This document shows, one piece after another, positions 176 through 20,922 of a DNA stretch of 22,277 nt. A model generated the notes under the pieces. The model worked only from the letters and a program-made list of their open reading frames with translations. It was not told where the DNA came from and did not search any database. The stretch's first letter is position 1; every line of letters starts with the position of its first letter. The stretch is from a virus, in IMG/VR virus record IMGVR_UViG_3300036857_000215, positions 1 through 22,277 of that record, one strand, 5' to 3'. A program made the position numbers and the translations under genes.

Positions 176-769
176 GTGAGCGAAGCGGGTCACAAGACGG
201 CGCTCGAGCTGGCGCTCGACGCGTATCGCGAGGCCGAGGCCGAACGCCGCGCCGCGGCTGGCCGCGAGGGGCAGCTCGCCCTCTTCGACGACGACGAGGC
301 GGGCGAGCCGGCGGCGCTTGGCGAGGGCCGCGCGGCTGAACCGGGCGAGCGTCGCATGGGGCGCCCGCCCGGGGCGCGCAACAAGCGCACCGACGAGCTC
401 GCGCGCTGGTATATCGGCAAAAACGGTGGTCGCGATCCCTTGGAACGCGGTATCGAGATTTCCGGTTTGCCGATCTTGGCGCCCGGCATCCTCGAGGGGC
501 TGGCGCAGCGTCTCGGCTGTTCGCGTTTTGATGCGGCCAAATTCTGGGCTGGCGTGTTGACCGCGACGCTACCCTACACGCATCAGCGGCTCGCCCAGCT
601 CGAGGTCAAGCCGGCGGGTGCGCTGGGCAGCGGCGAAGCGGTGCTGTGGACGCTAGGCGCGCGCGGCGAGCTCCTCGACGCGCGGCGGCATGAGCTCGGC
701 GATGCGGCGCTTAAGGACGTAACACCACCCTTCCCGGCGGCCGAACCGGACGATGATCCGTCCCGCTAG
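176..769 (+). CDS. Putative terminase small-subunit-like protein
   Basis: A 197-aa protein with a GTG start and only a weak upstream purine run. Residues 1-60 are acidic and Ala/Glu-rich, probably disordered. At about residues 62-71 there is a basic AT-hook-like segment, GRPPGARNKR. A helical region follows with the pattern 'DPLERGIEISGLP...LAQRLGCSRFDAAKF...LPYTHQRLAQLEVK'. From memory, this GRPxGxxNKRT start followed by a 'PYxHQ' block is found in small DNA-binding proteins next to large terminases in alphaproteobacterial podoviruses, where they are treated as small terminase subunits that recognise the packaging site. It is separated from the large terminase (3374) by six genes or sites, which is unusual but not prohibitive. 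It could instead be another phage DNA-binding protein. Confidence 0.5.
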   Translation: MSEAGHKTALELALDAYREAEAERRAAAGREGQLALFDDDEAGEPAALGEGRAAEPGERRMGRPPGARNKRTDELARWYIGKNGGRDPLERGIEISGLPILAPGILEGLAQRLGCSRFDAAKFWAGVLTATLPYTHQRLAQLEVKPAGALGSGEAVLWTLGARGELLDARRHELGDAALKDVTPPFPAAEPDDDPSR

Positions 770-2358: not shown

Positions 2359-2378
2359 GTCCGAGAGGGGTGCGGGGA

Positions 2379-2948
2379 ATGGCCAAGAGTACGCGATGGG
2401 GCGGGGCGCGGCGCGAGGCGATGCGGGCGGCTGGTATCGAGGAGCCATCGCGCGAGCGGCGCCGCCAAGGCGCGGTCGTGCGCCAGGTGGCGCTCGTCGA
2501 GGACGAGGCGGGCGGGATGCGCCGTGCGGTCGTCTGGCGCGGTCTCGACACGCTCGCGACGATGACGCAACGCGGCACGATCACCGCGACGATGGCGGCG
2601 GCTGGCGAGCGGTTTCACGACGCATTCCGGCGGGCCGGGCTCGATGGTCTCTATGCGCCGGACCCCAGGCGGGTCCCGGTGCAGCTCGGGCCGAGCTATG
2701 GCTTGTGGCGGATGGCGCGCGGCAATGACCGCGCCAAGCTCGAGGTTGCGGGCGCGCTTGCCGCCCTCGGCGGCGCCGTCTCGCCGGGCGGGTCGTGCGC
2801 CTGGCATGTGCTTGGCTGCGAATGGTCGCTGCGGCAATGGGCGGTCAGCGTCAATTGGGCGGCGGGCGGCATCTCGCACCAATATGCCGCCGGCATCCTG
2901 ATCGCCGGGCTCGGCATGCTCGACGCGCATTTTCGTCATAGGGTCTGA
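2379..2948 (+). CDS. DUF6456-like phage protein
   Basis: A 189-aa protein. I prefer ATG 2379 over GTG 2370 because AGAGGGG (2364-2370) is correctly spaced for it. The N-terminal 45 residues are basic. The middle has 'TLATMTQRGTITATMAAAGERFHDAFRRAGLDGLY'. The C-terminal third (W-HVLGCEWSLRQWA...AAGILIAGLGMLDAHF) resembles, from memory, the alphaproteobacterial DUF6456 fold: a helical protein in which a 'W-V-G-S-R-WA' motif is followed by a helix ending 'L-LAxHY'. Such proteins occur in prophages and chromosomes without a settled role. It stands alone between a strong terminator and a non-coding stretch just before the large terminase, where late-gene regulators often lie. A regulatory role is inference. 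Confidence 0.55.
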   Translation: MAKSTRWGGARREAMRAAGIEEPSRERRRQGAVVRQVALVEDEAGGMRRAVVWRGLDTLATMTQRGTITATMAAAGERFHDAFRRAGLDGLYAPDPRRVPVQLGPSYGLWRMARGNDRAKLEVAGALAALGGAVSPGGSCAWHVLGCEWSLRQWAVSVNWAAGGISHQYAAGILIAGLGMLDAHFRHRV

Positions 2949-3285: not shown

Positions 3286-3321
3286 CGACGAGGATGTGTG
3301 GTGGTTGTCGGCGGCGGGTGA

Positions 3322-3373: not shown

Positions 3374-5578
3374 ATGGCGGCGGCTGCCTTCTATGAGCCC
3401 GACGGCGCGCAACTGCGCGCGTTTCGTGCGAGCCAAGCCTTTGCGCGCGCTCTGATCGGTCCCGTCTATGGCGGCCGCAAGACCTGCTGCATCCACGAAA
3501 TCATCCGCCGGGTGCAAGACGCCAGGCGTCAGCGGCACTGGCGCTGGCTGGTGGTGGGGCCCAAAGCCGACGAGCTCGACCGCGAAATCGTGCCGGCATT
3601 GCGCGACGCCCTTCCGCCGGAAACCGGCTGGGATGCCAAAGGGCACCGTCTCGGGCTCGAATACAACCTCGGCGACGACATCCTGCGCCGCCTCGAAATC
3701 TTGGCTCTGGGGCTCGACCAGGAAGCCGACCGCAAGCGCTTTCTCGCGGCCGAAGCGACCGCGGTGTGGCTGGTCGACGCCCGCTGGCTCGCCGAAGGGG
3801 TGTTTGATACGGCGCTGACGATTGCGCGCAAGAGTTTTCCCGCACCCTTGCAGGGTGGTGCTGAATGGTCCGGGGTCATCTGCTCGTCGAGGATGCCGGG
3901 TCCCGGTCACTGGCTGATCGGCCGCAGTCTGGACGCCGGCGGCGTCAGACACGATCTCGCCCTGTTTCGCCAGCCGGGTGGCCGCACTCCCGAGGCGGAA
4001 AATCTTGGCCCCCTCAAAGCCGCTGGATTTTCCTACGAGAGCCTGGCCGAGCTGTGGCCGCCCGACCGGGTGCGGGTCGAGATCGACGCTGAGCTCGGCG
4101 CCTCGGCCGAGGAAACCGCCCTCGAGGCGGATCGCGAAGCGGCGCGCAACGACTTCACGCGGTTTATCGGGGTGGTGGCGCCCGATATCACGCCGGCGGC
4201 GCATCATCGGCTGTTGATCCACACCCTCGAACGGGTGGCGCGCGGCGAGTTGAAGCGGGTGATGTTCTTTCTGCCGCCGGGTGCTGCGAAATCGACCTAT
4301 GCCTCGCTGCTGTTTCCGCCGTGGTTTTTGGGGCGCAAGCCGGCGGACAGCATCATCCTCGCCTCGCACCAGCGCGAGCTCGCCGAGCGGTTTGGCCGCC
4401 GGGTGCGCAACATCGTCGCCTCGGCGCAATACCGCGATGTATTCGGGTTTGGGCTCGCCCCCGACAGCGGCGCGGCCGGGCGCTGGGAAACCCAGCGCGG
4501 CGGCGAATTCTATGCGGTCGGGGTCGACAGCTCGGTGACCGGCCGGCGCGCCGATCTCGGGATCATCGACGATCCCGTCAAAGGGCGCGCCGAAGCCGAC
4601 AGCCCGACCGTGCGCCAGCACACCTGGGATTGGTACAAGGCGGATTTCTGGACCCGCCTCAAACCCGGTGCCGCCCTCCTCTACATCGGCACCCGCTGGC
4701 ACGATGACGATCTCGCCGGGCGCCTCATCGAGGAGGCCAAAGCCGGCGGCGAACAATTCGAGATCATCTCGATCCCGGCACTCGCCAAGGAAGGCGACCC
4801 GCTGGGCCGCGCCCCCGGCGAGCGCCTGTGGCCGGAATGGTTCACCGCCGAGACGTTCGAGACCGCCCAGCGCGACGTGCGCAACTGGTCGGCGCTCTAC
4901 CAGCAAGAGCCGATGCCGGAATCGGGCGATTACTTCAAAGCCGAATGGATACGCTGGTACGACAAGGCGCCGCCGCGCGATGAGTTGCGCACCTATGGCG
5001 CCAGCGATTACGCGGTGACCAGCGATGGCGGTGATTTTACCGTGCACCTGGTGGCTGGGGTCGATCCCGAAGACGACATCTACCTGCTCGATTGCTGGCG
5101 CGAGCAGACTGCCTCAAACGAATGGGTCGAGGCCGAGCTCGATTTGATGGCGCGCTGGAAAACCCTCGAATGGGCCGAAGAAAAGGGGCAGATCGAAAAG
5201 GGGGTGGGGCCGTTTCTTACCAAGCGCCAGCGCGAGCGCAAGATTTACAACTACCGAAAACAGTATTCGACCGCGGGCGGCGACAAGGCGGTGCGGGCTC
5301 AGCCGATCCGCGCCCGGATGGCGATGGGGAAAGTGTATTTTCCGTCGCGCGCATCCTGGGCAACCGATTTTGTCCAGGAATTGTTGCGCTTTCCGGCCGG
5401 GCGCTTTGACGATCGGGTCGATGCGCTGGCACTGATCGGCCGGATGCTCGGCGAGATGGTGCCAGGGCAGCGCGCTAAGCGGCCCGAGCCGATCCGCGGC
5501 ATCGAGGCGCTGACCCTCGACCAGGCCTACAAACTCACCGGCCCCGGTGCGCGCTGGGGTGTGGCGCTGGTGCACTAG
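3374..5578 (+). CDS. Large terminase with an extra degenerate N-terminal terminase ATPase domain
   Basis: A 734-aa protein; phage large terminases are usually about 400-600 aa. Residues about 240-734 form a complete terminase: P-loop LPPGAAKST (300-308, a variant of the LPPRHGKS type), Walker B LGIIDD (395-400), coupling motif YIGTRWHDDD (437-446), and an RNase H-like nuclease with SDYAVT (Asp545), VDPEDDIYLLD (563-573) and the late acidic GRFDDRVDA (677-685). It would pump DNA into the prohead and cut it. Residues about 8-230 resemble the ATPase half of a different podoviral terminase family: PDGAQLRAF, a P-loop-like GPVYGGRKT (29-37), RWLVVGP, ILALGLDQEADRKRF, and RQPGGRTPEAENL (199-211). 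The P-loop and acidic box (VWLVDAR) are altered. Start at 3374 chosen because MAAAAFYEPDG matches how that family begins; the SD is poor. ATG 3344 lies inside a repeat. Confidence 0.93.
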   Translation: MAAAAFYEPDGAQLRAFRASQAFARALIGPVYGGRKTCCIHEIIRRVQDARRQRHWRWLVVGPKADELDREIVPALRDALPPETGWDAKGHRLGLEYNLGDDILRRLEILALGLDQEADRKRFLAAEATAVWLVDARWLAEGVFDTALTIARKSFPAPLQGGAEWSGVICSSRMPGPGHWLIGRSLDAGGVRHDLALFRQPGGRTPEAENLGPLKAAGFSYESLAELWPPDRVRVEIDAELGASAEETALEADREAARNDFTRFIGVVAPDITPAAHHRLLIHTLERVARGELKRVMFFLPPGAAKSTYASLLFPPWFLGRKPADSIILASHQRELAERFGRRVRNIVASAQYRDVFGFGLAPDSGAAGRWETQRGGEFYAVGVDSSVTGRRADLGIIDDPVKGRAEADSPTVRQHTWDWYKADFWTRLKPGAALLYIGTRWHDDDLAGRLIEEAKAGGEQFEIISIPALAKEGDPLGRAPGERLWPEWFTAETFETAQRDVRNWSALYQQEPMPESGDYFKAEWIRWYDKAPPRDELRTYGASDYAVTSDGGDFTVHLVAGVDPEDDIYLLDCWREQTASNEWVEAELDLMARWKTLEWAEEKGQIEKGVGPFLTKRQRERKIYNYRKQYSTAGGDKAVRAQPIRARMAMGKVYFPSRASWATDFVQELLRFPAGRFDDRVDALALIGRMLGEMVPGQRAKRPEPIRGIEALTLDQAYKLTGPGARWGVALVH

Positions 5579-5806
5579 GTGCGCTGCGAGCCGTGCCGCG
5601 GCCGGGGCGAGGTGCGCAATCCACGCGCCGGGTGTGCCGGCGAGCCGCCGACGATCCCGTGCGGCGAGTGCATCGGTGGGATCGCGTCGTGCTGCGACGG
5701 CGCCGGTAGCGAAGAAACGGCAAGAGGAAGCGGATCATGCCCGACGAGCAGCCTGCTCTCGACCTCGCCGGCGGCGGCGACGAGAAAAAGCGCCTGCCGA
5801 TCCTGA
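5579..5806 (+). CDS. Small zinc-finger (DnaJ-like CxxC) phage protein
   Basis: A 75-aa frame starting with GTG directly after the terminase stop. Residues 1-45 carry two CxxC pairs in DnaJ-type zinc-knuckle context, CEPCRGRGE (3-11) and CGECIGG (28-34), plus Cys19 and the doublet C38-C39 (ASCCDGAG). Small phage proteins ending in '...PCPxCxGxGIxxCCxG' are common beside packaging genes; their role is not established. The last 23 residues overlap the start of the HAD gene (5737) and look non-native (Ser/Ala-rich), so the functional part is probably residues 1-50. Confidence is high for the motif, lower for the exact end. Confidence 0.6.
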   Translation: MRCEPCRGRGEVRNPRAGCAGEPPTIPCGECIGGIASCCDGAGSEETARGSGSCPTSSLLSTSPAAATRKSACRS

Positions 5807-6195
5807 TGCTCGATTTTGACGGGGTGCTGCATTCCTACAGTTCGGGCTGGCAAGGGGCGGACCGCATCCTCGATCCGCCGGTCGCGGGGTTTGCCGGGTT
5901 TCTCGAACGCGCGGTCGAGCATTTCCAGGTGTGCGTGCACTCGTCGCGCTCGGCGGTCGAAGAAGGTCGCTGGGCGATGCGGGATTGGCTGCGCCGCGAG
6001 CTTCATGCGCATTACCGGCAGACAGTGTCGACCGATGCCGGCGCCTGGCGGGCGGCTGACGCGATCATGAACCGGATGGGGTTCCCGAAGGACAAGCCGG
6101 CGGCGTTTGTCAGTCTCGACGACCGGTGTCTGAATTTCACCGGCGTGTGGCCCGATATCGCCGAATTGCGCGCCTTTCGGCCGTGGTGGGGCTGA
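5737..6195 (+). CDS. HAD-superfamily phosphatase-like protein
   Basis: A 152-aa protein with GAGGAA about 8 nt before the ATG. After a short acidic lead, motif I is LMLDFDGVLHS (Asp26 nucleophile, Asp28 acid/base). Motif II is the Ser in VCVHSSRS (Ser69/70). The late acidic motif is VSLDDRCLNF (Asp128, Asp129), which would bind magnesium. No cap domain is evident. Family knowledge: minimal HAD enzymes of this kind hydrolyse phosphate esters, including nucleic-acid ends and nucleotides; the substrate here is unknown. It overlaps the zinc-finger frame by 70 nt. A clearly related copy at 20548-20922 lacks the catalytic residues. Confidence 0.82.
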   Translation: MPDEQPALDLAGGGDEKKRLPILMLDFDGVLHSYSSGWQGADRILDPPVAGFAGFLERAVEHFQVCVHSSRSAVEEGRWAMRDWLRRELHAHYRQTVSTDAGAWRAADAIMNRMGFPKDKPAAFVSLDDRCLNFTGVWPDIAELRAFRPWWG

Positions 6196-6202
6196 TCCCC
6201 GA

Positions 6203-6914
6203 ATGGCCGATATCCGCGAGGGCCACGTGCTCGACCGGCTCAGGGAAATGCCGGGCGAGAGTGTGCATTGCGTCGTGACCTCACCGCCCTATTGGGGGCT
6301 CAGAGACTACGGCGGCCCGCCGCAAATCTGGGGCGGCGATCCCGGCTGCGGTCACGATGATTGGGGCGCAGAATCTGTCTTGCCGCCCCTGACCGGCGGG
6401 TTCACCGAAAAGCAAGTCACGAATATCGGCTCTTATCGCGCGGCACAGCCGTCAACCACTTGCCGGTGCTGCGGGGCGTGGCGCGGGGCGCTCGGGCTCG
6501 AACCCGATTGGCGGCTCTACCTCGACCACGTGGTCATGGTGTTGCGCGAGGTGCGCCGCGTGCTGCGCCGCGACGGCACCCTCTGGCTCAATCTCGGCGA
6601 CAGCTATGCCGGCAATGGATCATCCGCGGCTGCGTGGCGCGGTTGGGCAAAAGCCGATGGACGCCTCAAACGGCTGGCAAGGCACGCCGCGTGGCACGAC
6701 GGCGGCCGAAACGACCGGCTGGCGCGCGTCGTGTCCGTGCGGGCAACGCCGCGAGCCGGTGCCGGCAACCGTGCTTGACCCGTTTTTGGGCTCAGGGACG
6801 ACAGCGATGGTCGCCGAGCGGCTCGGGCGGCGCGCGATCGGGATCGATCTCAACCCCGATTACATCCGAATGGCCGAGCGGCGTGCCTCGCAGCCCGGTC
6901 TGATGCTGGCCTAA
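6203..6914 (+). pseudogene. Broken beta-class DNA (N4-cytosine/N6-adenine) methyltransferase
   Basis: The first frame (6203-6778) encodes a normal methyltransferase start. It has catalytic motif IV TSPPYW (residues 26-31), then [25 protein letters not shown], and the helix [17 protein letters not shown]. After about 6625 that frame turns into Arg-rich nonsense. Family-like sequence resumes one frame over (6606-6914) with [11 protein letters not shown] and the AdoMet-binding motif [12 protein letters not shown], then [18 protein letters not shown]. Motif order IV then I is that of beta-class enzymes. Besides the +1 frame change, the central part (motifs V-VIII and the target-recognition domain, normally over 100 residues) is missing. 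The combined length is about 237 codons. The gene is therefore decayed and unlikely to methylate DNA. Intact relatives in phages protect virion DNA from restriction. Confidence 0.8.
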
Positions 6915-6918
6915 ACCG

Positions 6919-8730
6919 ATGGCCGACCAGGTCACGATCGCCACCGCGCAGACGATCGAGCGCCCGAGCGATCTGGGCTCGGGCCCCGACGCGACGGTGC
7001 GGTTCTGGAATGGCCAGCTCGGGCTCGCCGAGGCGCAAGACCGCGACTGGATCGAGCGCGGGCGCAAGATCGTCGAGCGCTATCGCGACGAGCGCAACCA
7101 GGTGAACGCCGGCCGCGAGGTCCGCTACAACGTTTTGTGGGCCAACACCGAAACGCTGAAACCGGTGCTCTATGGCCGGATTCCCAAACCCGATGTGTCG
7201 CGCCGCCACAAGGACGAAGCCGACCCCTCGGCGTCGCTGGGTGCGGACATCATCGAGCGCTGTCTCGAATGGGAAGACGATATCGAGGAATTCGATGCCG
7301 TCATGCAGGCGGTGGTCGAGGATCGCCTCTTGCCCGGCCGCGGTATCGCGCGGGTCTTTTACGAGCCCGAATTCGGGGCCGAGGAGGAGGATGCGGCCGC
7401 CGAAGGGGATACCGCCGAAAGCGGTGGCGGCGGCAATGAGCCTGGTGCCGCTGCCGAGGGCGACCAGGACGACGACAGCGAGGTTGGCGGCACCGCGCCG
7501 GGGGGTGCCGGTGCTGCCGAGGCCTTCGGTGCCGGGGTTTCGGCCCCGGAAGCCGGGGCTTCGCCGGGGTTTCGTCCAGTCATCAACGAGCGCGCCCCCT
7601 TGCGCTATGTATTTTGGGAAGACTATCGCGAGAGTCCGGCGCGCACCGAAGACGAAATCTGGTGGAAAGCCTATCGCAGCTATTTGACCCGCGACCAATT
7701 GACCGAGCGTTTCGGCCGCGAGCTCGGTAACGCCGTCGATCTCGACTATACCCCTTCGGGAGTGAACACCGACGGCAATAACGGGCCGCTCCCCGACGCG
7801 TTCAAAAAAGCGAGCGTCTGGGAAATCTGGAACAAGCGCAAACGCGAGGTCGTATGGCTCGCCAAAGGTTATGCCAAGACGCCGCTCGACCAAAAACCCG
7901 ATCCGCTCGAATTGCCGGGGTTTTTTCCGTCGCCGCCGGCACTTTTGGCGACGACGACCAACAACACGCGGGTCCCGGTCGCCGATTACATCGAATATCA
8001 GGATCAGGCGCAGGAGCTCGACAATCTGACAAGCCGCATCGACCGCCTGGTGCGGGCATTGAAAGTCGCCGGTGTCTATGCCGGCGCCGAAAAGGCGGTC
8101 TTGCAGCAGCTCATCGATGACGGCAGCGAAAACCGGCTGATCCCGGTCGAGGATTGGGCGGCCTTTGCCGGCGACAAGGGCGGTGTTGCAAACCTGATCC
8201 AATGGCTGCCGGTGCAGCAGATCGCCGATGTGGTGGTGCGGCTCTACGATGCGCGCGAGCGCATCCTGGCGATCATCTACCAGACGACCGGGATCGCCGA
8301 CATCCTGCGCGGCGAGACCAACCCGACCGAGACCTTGGGCGCGCAGGTGCTCAAAAGTCAGTTCGCAACCCGCCGGATCAGCCGCGCGCAAAAGGAGGTG
8401 GCGCGGTTTGCCCGCGATTTGATGCGGCTGCGCGGTTCGATCATCGCGCGGCATTTCTCGCCCGAGACCTTGGGTCGGATGTCGGGCTTGCCCGATCCGC
8501 TGCCGGCGCTGCCGCCGCCGCCGCCGATGCTGATCCCGGCCCCTCAATCACCGATGCCGCAACCGATGGGAACCGGCCCGGCGCCGGTGGCCGCCGCCCA
8601 GGCCGGGGCGCCGGGTGTCCCACCCGGTGGGGGCGCGCCCGCCATACCCCCAGCGGGCCCCCCGGCGGCTCCCGCGCCGATGCGTCCGGCGTTGCCGCCG
8701 CCCGCGGCCGGCGCGGCGGCTGGGGCGTGA
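6919..8730 (+). CDS. Portal protein, N-terminal part (P22-like)
   Basis: A 603-aa protein. It reads as a P22-like portal: RFWNGQLGLAEAQDRDWIERGRKIVERYRDER, VLWANTETLKPVLYGRIPKPDVSRR, VINERAPLRYVFWEDYRESPARTEDEIWW, and the wing/stem signature IIYQTTGIADILRGETNPTETLGAQVLKSQF. The portal dodecamer forms the DNA channel at one head vertex and docks the terminase. Residues about 153-218 are an acidic Gly/Ala-rich insert, probably a loop. The frame ends in a Pro/Ala-rich tail (about 525-603). The C-terminal portion expected in this family, with IDIEADSTIAADE and the helical barrel, is found in the next gene, one nucleotide downstream and in another frame. SD is weak. Confidence 0.9.
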   Translation: MADQVTIATAQTIERPSDLGSGPDATVRFWNGQLGLAEAQDRDWIERGRKIVERYRDERNQVNAGREVRYNVLWANTETLKPVLYGRIPKPDVSRRHKDEADPSASLGADIIERCLEWEDDIEEFDAVMQAVVEDRLLPGRGIARVFYEPEFGAEEEDAAAEGDTAESGGGGNEPGAAAEGDQDDDSEVGGTAPGGAGAAEAFGAGVSAPEAGASPGFRPVINERAPLRYVFWEDYRESPARTEDEIWWKAYRSYLTRDQLTERFGRELGNAVDLDYTPSGVNTDGNNGPLPDAFKKASVWEIWNKRKREVVWLAKGYAKTPLDQKPDPLELPGFFPSPPALLATTTNNTRVPVADYIEYQDQAQELDNLTSRIDRLVRALKVAGVYAGAEKAVLQQLIDDGSENRLIPVEDWAAFAGDKGGVANLIQWLPVQQIADVVVRLYDARERILAIIYQTTGIADILRGETNPTETLGAQVLKSQFATRRISRAQKEVARFARDLMRLRGSIIARHFSPETLGRMSGLPDPLPALPPPPPMLIPAPQSPMPQPMGTGPAPVAAAQAGAPGVPPGGGAPAIPPAGPPAAPAPMRPALPPPAAGAAAGA

Positions 8731-8731
8731 G

Positions 8732-9532
8732 GTGAGCGAAGAACGCGGCGCGGTTGTCGGGTTTCCAAGCGGCGCGCCGATGCCGCCTGGCGTGGGGGCG
8801 CCGGGGCCGGTCGCCGGACCCGCCGCCCCGCCGCCGATGGTGCTCAACCCGGCTTTTGTCCAATGGCGGCAATTGGCGCAGGCCTGGCACGCCGAAAAAC
8901 AGCGGCGCGAGGACGAGTTTCGCGCCGCCTGCATGACGATCCGCCACGATGTCGCGGCCGGCTACAAGATCGACATCGAAGCCGACAGCACGATCGCGGC
9001 CGACGAGCAGGCCGAAAAACAGGCGCGCACCGAATTTTTGCAATCGATGATCCCGATGCTGCAGCTCCTCATTCCCGAGGCGCAGCAGAACCCGGGGGCG
9101 GTGCCGCTCATTCACGCGCTCGTGATGTTCGGGGTGCGCGCCTTTCCGGCGGCGAGGAGCCTCGAGCAGCAATTCGAGCAGGCGTTTCGCGCCCTCTTGC
9201 AGGCGCCACCCTCGCCGCCGCCACCTAAAGGCAACACCAAATCGCCGCTCGAAATCGCGAGCGAGGCGAAGACCGCCGCCGGTGACCAGGCGGTGGATCA
9301 GCAATCGAACCAGATCAAAGCCGCGCAGGTACAGGTGCAGCAGCAAAAAAACGCGATCGATCTGTTCGAAGCCTACATGAAGGCGCAGCAGGGTCAGGCG
9401 GCGCAGGCGCAGGAAGGCCAGTTGCGCACGGCCGAGTTGACGCAGGAAGGGGCGATCATGGCCGACCGCCAGGCGCTCGACCGGGCGCGCCTCACGCATC
9501 TGATGACCCGCGACGCGACGGGGCTGGTGTGA
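8732..9532 (+). CDS. Portal protein, C-terminal part
   Basis: A 266-aa protein from GTG 8732, 1 nt after the upstream TGA. After a Pro/Ala/Gly-rich lead (1-40) comes DVAAGYKIDIEADSTIAADEQAEKQARTEFLQSMIPMLQLL...LIHALVMFGVRAFPAARSLEQQFEQAF. In alphaproteobacterial P22-like portals this block follows directly after the 'SPETLxxMxG' helix, which is where the upstream gene leaves the family sequence. The remainder is a long Gln/Ala-rich helix (QSNQIKAAQVQVQQQKNAIDLFEAYMKAQQ...) suited to a barrel or coiled coil. Either the portal is made as two chains by re-initiation, or an indel split it. The frame upstream of 8732 gives Arg-rich nonsense, so the break is at or near the stop/start. Could be misread as a separate scaffold-like protein. 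Confidence 0.75.
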   Translation: MSEERGAVVGFPSGAPMPPGVGAPGPVAGPAAPPPMVLNPAFVQWRQLAQAWHAEKQRREDEFRAACMTIRHDVAAGYKIDIEADSTIAADEQAEKQARTEFLQSMIPMLQLLIPEAQQNPGAVPLIHALVMFGVRAFPAARSLEQQFEQAFRALLQAPPSPPPPKGNTKSPLEIASEAKTAAGDQAVDQQSNQIKAAQVQVQQQKNAIDLFEAYMKAQQGQAAQAQEGQLRTAELTQEGAIMADRQALDRARLTHLMTRDATGLV

Positions 9533-12041: not shown

Positions 12042-13073
12042 ATGCCCTCACCCAATCCGAATTGGGGCGAGATCACGACCACGACCTTGTTCAACCGGTC
12101 GCGCAAACTCGCCGACAACGTCACCAAAAACAACGCAATCCTACAGCGCCTTTCGGCGCGCGGCAAAGTCAAGCCGGTCGATGGCGGTCAAGCTATCGTG
12201 CAAGAGCTCGAATACTCGGAAAACGGCACTTACAAGCGTTATTCTGGGTATGACATCCTGAATATTTCGCCAAGCGACGTGTTTACTGCGGCACAGTATC
12301 CGTGGGCGCAGGCGGCGGTGGCGGTCTCGATCTCGGGCCTCGAGGAATTGCAGAATTCCGGCGAGGAACGGATGATCGACCTGTTGGAGGCGCGCATCGG
12401 CAACGCCGAGCGCACGATGACCAACGGCATTTCGGGCGATTGCTACGGCGACGGCACGTTGGACGGCGGCAAGCAGATCGGCGGTCTGCAATTGCTGATC
12501 GCCGATGTCAATACGTCGGGGGTCGTCGGCGGCATCGACCGCGGCCTGTGGCCATTCTGGCGGCATGCGGTGCATTCCTTTACCGGCGACGGGCTGACCG
12601 CCTCGACCGCGACGATGCAGACCGAAATGAACCGCGCCTGGCTGGCACAAGTGCGCGGCACCGACCGGCCCGATCTGATCATCGCCGACAACACCTATTA
12701 CCGGTTTTATTGGGAGAGCTTGCAGGCGATCCAGCGGATCAACAGCCCGAGCGAAGGGGTGGCGGGGTTTCAAAGCCTCAAATTCATGGATGCCGATGTC
12801 GTCTTTGACGGCGGCTTTCAGGGTGTGGCGGCCGGCACCGGCACCGTGATCGGCGGCGGGATCACCTGGGCCACACCGGGTGGTGCACCCAGCAATCACA
12901 TGTATTTTCTCAACACCGATTACATCTTTTTGCGCCCGCACCGCGACCGCGACATGGTGCCGCTCAATCCCGACCGGTTTGCCGTCAATCAAGACGCGAT
13001 GGTCAAGCTTGTCGCTTGGGCCGGCAACATGACGATGAGTAACGCCTTTTTGCAGGGTGTGATCATCAATTAG
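12042..13073 (+). CDS. Major capsid (coat) protein
   Basis: A 343-aa protein following the scaffold gene. CGGAAAA lies about 10 nt before the ATG. It begins MPSPNPNWGEITTTTLFNRSRKLADNVTKNNAIL. It contains ISGLEELQNSGEERMIDLLEARIGNAERTM (a spine-helix-like segment), LIIADNTYYRFYWESLQAIQRI, and ends MYFLNTDYIFLRPHRDRDMVPL...VKLVAWAGNMTMSNAFLQGVI. This is the pattern of phage coat proteins of the HK97 fold found in podovirus-like prophages. The length fits, and gene order (scaffold, coat, decoration) supports it. It would form the icosahedral head. Confidence 0.88.
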   Translation: MPSPNPNWGEITTTTLFNRSRKLADNVTKNNAILQRLSARGKVKPVDGGQAIVQELEYSENGTYKRYSGYDILNISPSDVFTAAQYPWAQAAVAVSISGLEELQNSGEERMIDLLEARIGNAERTMTNGISGDCYGDGTLDGGKQIGGLQLLIADVNTSGVVGGIDRGLWPFWRHAVHSFTGDGLTASTATMQTEMNRAWLAQVRGTDRPDLIIADNTYYRFYWESLQAIQRINSPSEGVAGFQSLKFMDADVVFDGGFQGVAAGTGTVIGGGITWATPGGAPSNHMYFLNTDYIFLRPHRDRDMVPLNPDRFAVNQDAMVKLVAWAGNMTMSNAFLQGVIIN

Positions 13074-20551: not shown

Positions 20552-20922
20552 GCGCCGGCGGCCTGGCGCGCGAGCCGCGGCTGCCGGTCGCAAAGCCGGC
20601 GCCGGAAGCGACAAGGCCGGAAGTGCTGATCGATTTTGGCAATGCCTGCCCGGCGGGTGCCGATCGCGGCCTGGTGCGGTTTCTCGAAACCGCGGTCAGG
20701 CATTTCGCAGTCGCGGTGTGGTGGGCTCATTCCGCCGAGCAAGAGGGCCGCGCGCTGTTGCGCGGCTGGCTCGGCCAGCAATTGTTGACAGCGTGCCGCG
20801 GCGAACGGCCCGAGGGTGCCGAGCGCCGCGCCAGCGACATCCTGCGGCGCATCGGCTTTCCGGCGGCGCGGCCGCCGGGTCTGGCGCTCCGGGTGGGCTT
20901 TGAGTCGTCGGTAAACAGATAA
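20548..20922 (+). CDS. Catalytically dead HAD-like paralogue
   Basis: A 124-aa protein with GTG overlapping the previous stop. It aligns along most of its length with the HAD phosphatase at 5737-6195: VLIDFGNA with ILMLDFDGV; RFLETAVRHFAVAVWWAHSAEQEGRALLRGWLGQQL with GFLERAVEHFQVCVHSSRSAVEEGRWAMRDWLRREL; and RRIGFPAARPPG with NRMGFPKDKPAA. The key residues are gone: acid/base Asp28 is Gly31, the motif II Ser residues are Trp59/Ala60, and the magnesium-binding Asp128-Asp129 are Val116-Gly117. Only the first Asp (29) remains. It cannot be a normal HAD enzyme. It is shorter by about 28 residues and has the same codon style as its neighbours, so it is a kept gene rather than noise. Position among tail genes suggests a structural or regulatory reuse (inference). 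Confidence 0.72.
   Translation: MSAGGLAREPRLPVAKPAPEATRPEVLIDFGNACPAGADRGLVRFLETAVRHFAVAVWWAHSAEQEGRALLRGWLGQQLLTACRGERPEGAERRASDILRRIGFPAARPPGLALRVGFESSVNR

Follow-up and report, generated by a model that had tools for sequence, protein, structure and literature searches.

A chimeric large terminase with a putatively dead additional ATPase domain in a phage clade in which no small terminase gene was detected next to it

The DNA analyzed here (the window) is a stretch of 22,277 nucleotides from the IMG/VR virus record IMGVR_UViG_3300036857_000215. A single open reading frame on the plus strand, positions 3374-5578, encodes a large terminase subunit (TerL) of 734 amino acids and contains no internal stops. 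An alternative GTG start codon upstream at 3296 is possible; homologues begin at the ATG at 3374 (M..YxPxG), and no candidate for a conserved internal start yielding the motor alone was found among the aligned homologues. Residues ~243-704 represent a complete TerL of the family phrog_38 (E 1e-113) and match the Pfam families Terminase_6N, in the ATPase domain of the motor (4145-4951, plus strand; P-loop PPGAAKST at 4274-4297), and Terminase_6C, in the nuclease domain (5006-5431, plus strand; residues 545-686). The motor P-loop PPG[SA]AKST is intact in all fused copies and the same as in the unfused TerL of locus L008. In front of this terminase and in the same frame lies a putative pseudo-ATPase domain, the N-domain (3374-4093, plus strand; residues 1 to ~240), which was assigned to subdomains I and II of the Mx8-type TerL ATPase by tblastn, alignment, HMM, an AF2 model and Foldseek. 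The junction or linker between both parts (4073-4144, plus strand; residues 234-257) is modelled with low confidence: in the full-chain model pLDDT is below 50 across residues 227-244 and pTM is 0.49, and neither linker orientation nor ring geometry is fixed by this model. A first-pass annotation made from the letters alone had described the coordinates and motifs of this gene correctly, as judged from the reading frame, profile matches and alignment, including the complete large terminase behind the N-terminal part.

Residues 1-233 alone gave no useful family match in Pfam, PHROG or NCBIfam, and the N-domain sequence matched none of the PDB chains. A tblastn search of the N-terminal part against phage genomes led to terminases (Rhizobium phage RHph_TM3_14A, 6e-16; Myxococcus phage Mx8, 3e-13; Cronobacter phage Ss1, 6e-12). 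A profile HMM derived from nine Mx8-type terminases, with the window sequence left out, scored 106.8 bits on the N-domain compared to 5.4 bits for the best of 2000 shuffled sequences; it aligns to residues 6-243, and the similarity stops at the border between ATPase and nuclease of the relatives. The AlphaFold model of the N-domain (pLDDT 86, pTM 0.83) was compared to known structures with Foldseek and has its ATPase fold in common with the terminase ATPase domains of P74-26, D6E and Sf6 (PDB 7ks4, 5oea and 4iei; E 1.9e-9 to 2.4e-5). The relationship of the N-domain to terminases thus emerged from tblastn, the Mx8-type HMM and the fold, not from family scans. Sequence and model together indicate that residues 1 to ~240 are homologous to the ATPase half of TerL proteins of the Mx8/TM3_14A type (phrog_2; Mx8, RHph_TM3_14A, Ss1) over its full length and adopt a terminase ATPase fold. 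The N-domain differs from Mx8-type TerL in lacking the nuclease half, the homology ending at ~243, and from the P74-26, D6E and Sf6 proteins in that these are active ATPases in single-ATPase terminases. Standalone N-domain genes were not found, and a search for closer standalone relatives returned only distant intact Mx8-type terminases (L115 and L135). The proposal that one chain holds terminase ATPase domains of two different families was thus borne out by the Mx8-type HMM and the phrog_38 match, by separate profile searches of both parts and by structure prediction. The protein is almost certainly a chimera of two TerL families, in which the ATPase half of an Mx8-type TerL, cut at the nuclease border, was joined in frame to a complete phrog_38 TerL.

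Compared to active Mx8-type relatives, the N-domain has Walker A, the catalytic Glu and motif III replaced. Walker A (3458-3484, plus strand; residues 29-37), GPxGSGKS in active relatives, is GPxYxGRK[ST] throughout the aligned fused copies; in the window GPVGSGKS has become GPVYGGRKT. In a gap-free alignment Arg35 takes the place of the catalytic Walker Lys and Lys36 that of the Ser/Thr, in agreement with the N-domain model, in which the P-loop helix begins at residue 35. In the Walker B region (VWLVDAR at 3764-3784, plus strand; residues 131-137) the acidic box NEA(R) of active relatives has in most copies become DDAR; the window has VDAR, L005 DEAR and L097 EDAR, and the catalytic Glu is replaced by Asp in nearly all fused copies. 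Motif III (SSRMP at 3884-3898, plus strand; residues 171-175) is DTN(P) in active relatives and SRMP in fused copies, with Arg in place of Asn, and SRMPxPGHWL is invariant across the fused N-domains. The invariant basic residues R35, K36 and R173 occupy the former nucleotide site, and an N-terminal Y-P-F segment, a possible adenine contact, is kept. The alignment with Mx8-type terminases confirms that the first P-loop has lost its canonical form and that the NEAR-type box has become VDAR, both noticed in the first-pass annotation. Judged by these motifs, the N-domain is most likely catalytically dead; a one-residue shift that would keep K[ST] as the working pair is less probable, and the invariance of R35-K36 together with the kept Y-P-F segment leaves room for nucleotide binding. 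A full-length Mx8-type terminase of Microcystis phage Mwe-JY08 (L093, 2944-4539) has the P-loop GPIRSGTSS without the Walker Lys and is possibly a second inactivated copy.

Protein and profile scans detected 22 further IMG/VR loci from many metagenomes that carry the N-domain in frame on the same TerL, among them one frameshifted locus (L006) and a few cut by contig ends; homologues with the same N-terminal extension thus exist. L006, the closest fused relative, contains a one-base frameshift around position 3320, inside the N-domain, which is either a sequencing error or a real break. A tree calculated for the TerL part places the fused copies in a single clade with support 1.0, to which the unfused L007-L011, L030 and L078 are the sister group, and the N-domains form one clade among Mx8-type ATPases. 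Distances in the N part correlate with those in the C part (r 0.81, Mantel p 5e-4), therefore both halves were inherited together, and a fusion that arose once is the simplest account of the sequences. For informative pairs dN/dS was 0.02-0.33 in the N part and 0.03-0.30 in the C part, values obtained with a simple method in GC-rich DNA, of which only the comparison between both parts is meaningful. This comparison indicates that the N-domain is under purifying selection as strong as in the working half, and the N-domain very probably has a maintained function. Bacterial and archaeal genomes were scanned twice with the N-domain, and no prophage was found; GcrA-like and DUF6456-like neighbour genes give no more than a hint of Alphaproteobacteria as hosts. 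A large in-frame insert resembling an intein was observed in another phrog_38 TerL (L072, 2191-4218); for the N-domain itself, its ATPase fold and the position of the junction, where the unfused TerL begins, speak against an intein or internal insert.

The unfused sister TerLs (IMG/VR loci L008, L009, L010, L011, L030 and L078) are 63-66% identical to the TerL part and are accompanied by a related portal, but they have no N-domain, and a gene for the small terminase subunit (TerS) or a TerS-like gene lies directly upstream of TerL. This gene belongs to phrog_1482 in L008, L009 and L011 and to phrog_309 in L010 and L078, and is TerS-like in L030; the contig of L007 ends upstream of TerL and gives no information on TerS. 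Such a TerS gene adjoining TerL was not seen at the fused loci: phrog_1482 matched none of 15 fused contigs, and phrog_309 or phrog_51 none of the eight searched, where absence means no detectable similarity, as TerS genes diverge fast and the contigs are maybe not complete genomes. At most fused loci the preceding gene ends only ~0.1-0.2 kb before the fused TerL, therefore there is no room for a TerS gene directly in front of it. Known members of phrog_38 (Phage CBW1004C-Prop1, Microcystis phage Mwe-JY13 and Pseudanabaena phage Pam1) likewise combine a single ATPase domain with a TerS gene in the vicinity, whereas the fused chain, although a full member over residues ~243-704, has a second ATPase domain at its N-terminus and no adjacent TerS.

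Two genes on the upstream side could encode a TerS. The nearer one (2370-2948, plus strand), immediately before the fused TerL, is conserved and shows weak similarity to DUF6456 (E 0.004, below the Pfam cut-off); it is a possible TerS stand-in or regulator. All 22 fused loci measured have a gene of this type, and in the unfused L008 and L030 it precedes TerS. The gene at 176-769 (plus strand), a candidate for a displaced TerS with faint TerS-like features (GRPxGxRNKRT...PYxHxRL), has been seen so far only in the fused clade: among the 13 fused phages whose contigs reach far enough upstream, 10 have an orthologue (L103, L104 and L107 lack it), and none has come to light so far in an unfused phage. 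Its similarity to phrog_15261 is weak (0.026 in the window, 4.3e-5 for the orthologue in G007), and hhalign aligned it with the TerS-like protein of L014 with a probability of 46% over a short match of 14 columns (PYxHxRL). No match to its product was found in phages, and homology to Mx8 p42 or to the TerS of L008 was detected in neither comparison. The 176-769 product may thus be a TerS that was displaced and docks on the N-domain, or it may be something other than a TerS. Between both genes, ahead of the packaging genes, lies a serine recombinase or DNA invertase gene (1478-2065), the relatives of which are on the opposite strand in other fused contigs (G001).

Downstream of the terminase, the main part of an Mx8-type portal protein (phrog_12082; 6919-8730, plus strand), the C-terminal part of the portal as a separate reading frame (8615-9532, plus strand) and the major head protein (phrog_9953; 12042-13073, plus strand) are encoded. 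Fused and unfused phages have portals of one and the same Mx8-related family, and they also share the capsid where that stretch is present. Since portal and capsid are otherwise the same in both groups, the gene order indicates that the fusion correlates with the loss of the adjacent TerS and not with a change of the portal. The portal gene is split into two reading frames in fused and unfused members (the window; the G001 and G003 pieces L117, L119 and L121; L009 and L078), with at least one gene between the portal parts in several contigs, including, in G001 and G003, a reading frame of ~660-710 amino acids that belongs to no known family; the portal is a single gene in Mx8 and RHph_I3_18. 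Between Mx8 (L001, 3926-5374) and Mx9 (L145, 871-2295) the portals and the nuclease halves of TerL are related, but the ATPase halves of TerL differ: terminase domains have been swapped within this group.

Several explanations of the N-domain were weighed. That an assembly error joined two unrelated terminase genes is conceivable for a single metagenome contig, which can be chimeric, but it is practically dismissed, since 22 other contigs, which come from many separate metagenomes and span a wide range of divergence, have the same in-frame junction. The N-domain could also be a functionless leftover of recombination on its way out, as the first-pass annotation had considered; the loss of the catalytic motifs and the frameshift in L006 would fit such a relic. 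This is nevertheless very improbable, as the selection on the N-domain equals that on the motor part, the altered P-loop and SRMPxPGHWL are invariant, and the frame is intact in the other fused loci, including pairs just 44-57% identical to the window. If the N-domain still bound or slowly hydrolyzed ATP, it could form a second, regulatory motor ring, for which the kept Y-P-F segment and the K[ST] pair one residue later would speak; with Arg at the Walker Lys, Lys at the Ser/Thr, Asp for the catalytic Glu in nearly all copies and Arg for the motif III Asn, we consider this quite improbable.

An adapter to the portal is somewhat less improbable, though still unlikely: the graft would seat the phrog_38 motor on an Mx8-type portal, to which an Mx8-type ATPase half is suited, and the portal of the window is clearly related to that of Mx8, whose TerL is a relative of the N-domain. 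However, in the unfused L009, L010, L030, L078 and G017 a phrog_38 TerL that has no N-domain goes together with this portal family, and Mx9, BUCT555, ppBjS10J-1 and RHph_I3_18 combine it with TerLs of another ATPase type. The same portal family works without the N-domain elsewhere, therefore the portal does not require it. A direct replacement of TerS, in which a covalently attached ring of dead ATPase domains would recognize the genome and gate the motor with no TerS at all, is a tentative alternative that we take more seriously. TerS and the N-domain are mutually exclusive in the compared loci, and R35, K36 and R173 are invariant basic residues in the former nucleotide site; on the other hand, most fused phages with enough upstream sequence carry the weakly TerS-like 176-769 gene, and we know of no RecA-type fold that acts as a sequence-specific pac binder.

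We favor a platform on the TerS side because the foreign domain sits at the N-terminus of TerL and was gained as the neighboring TerS was lost. For P22, mapping placed the site at which TerL binds TerS within the first 23 residues of TerL (PMC9611059). Going beyond homology, motif loss, selection and gene order, we infer that a working TerL acquired the dead ATPase domain in a single event that coincided with the loss of the TerS gene. The phrog_38 motor was probably the resident and the Mx8-type ATPase half the newcomer, because the phrog_38 TerL, portal and capsid are common with the unfused sisters; the first-pass idea of a resident terminase that was replaced and left its N-terminus behind therefore keeps the two-family chimera, with the direction probably reversed. 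The C-terminal TerL would hydrolyze ATP and translocate and cut DNA, and the N-domain would take no part in ATP hydrolysis. Five chains on the portal would place five N-domains beside the motor ring, where they would form a fixed platform without catalytic activity at the N-terminus of TerL, the end that faces TerS. Such a platform would do part of the job of TerS, holding the DNA and restraining the motor until packaging starts, or it would dock a non-canonical TerS that arrived with the N-domain. Docking to the portal or the small subunit had been proposed before and is compatible with the data, the missing upstream TerS favoring the side of the small subunit; with little more than even confidence we place the function there rather than on the portal side. 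To the whole reading, a chimeric TerL that arose once and is maintained with the N-domain as a platform on the TerS side, we assign a probability of about 0.55.

Inactive copies of ATPase domains that turned structural or regulatory are familiar from cellular ring machines; we know of no such copy repurposed in viral packaging motors, and every large terminase known to us has a single ATPase domain. A search of open-licence papers found no description of double, fused or degenerate-ATPase terminases. Both halves belong to known families and, as far as can be told, the maintained arrangement of a dead plus a live domain is undescribed. A maintained two-family chimera in which one half is dead and the adjacent TerS is lost is a natural experiment on the role of TerS and its site on TerL, which are poorly understood structurally (PMC9611059).

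Two other kinds of genes were observed around the packaging genes. A fragment of a DNA N6/N4 methyltransferase gene with a partial family alignment (6203-6778) lies between the fused TerL and the portal and has no copy in the related contigs compared. HAD-like genes (HAD_SAK_2) are located at 5737-6192 and 20572-20874 of the window and are 36% identical to each other.
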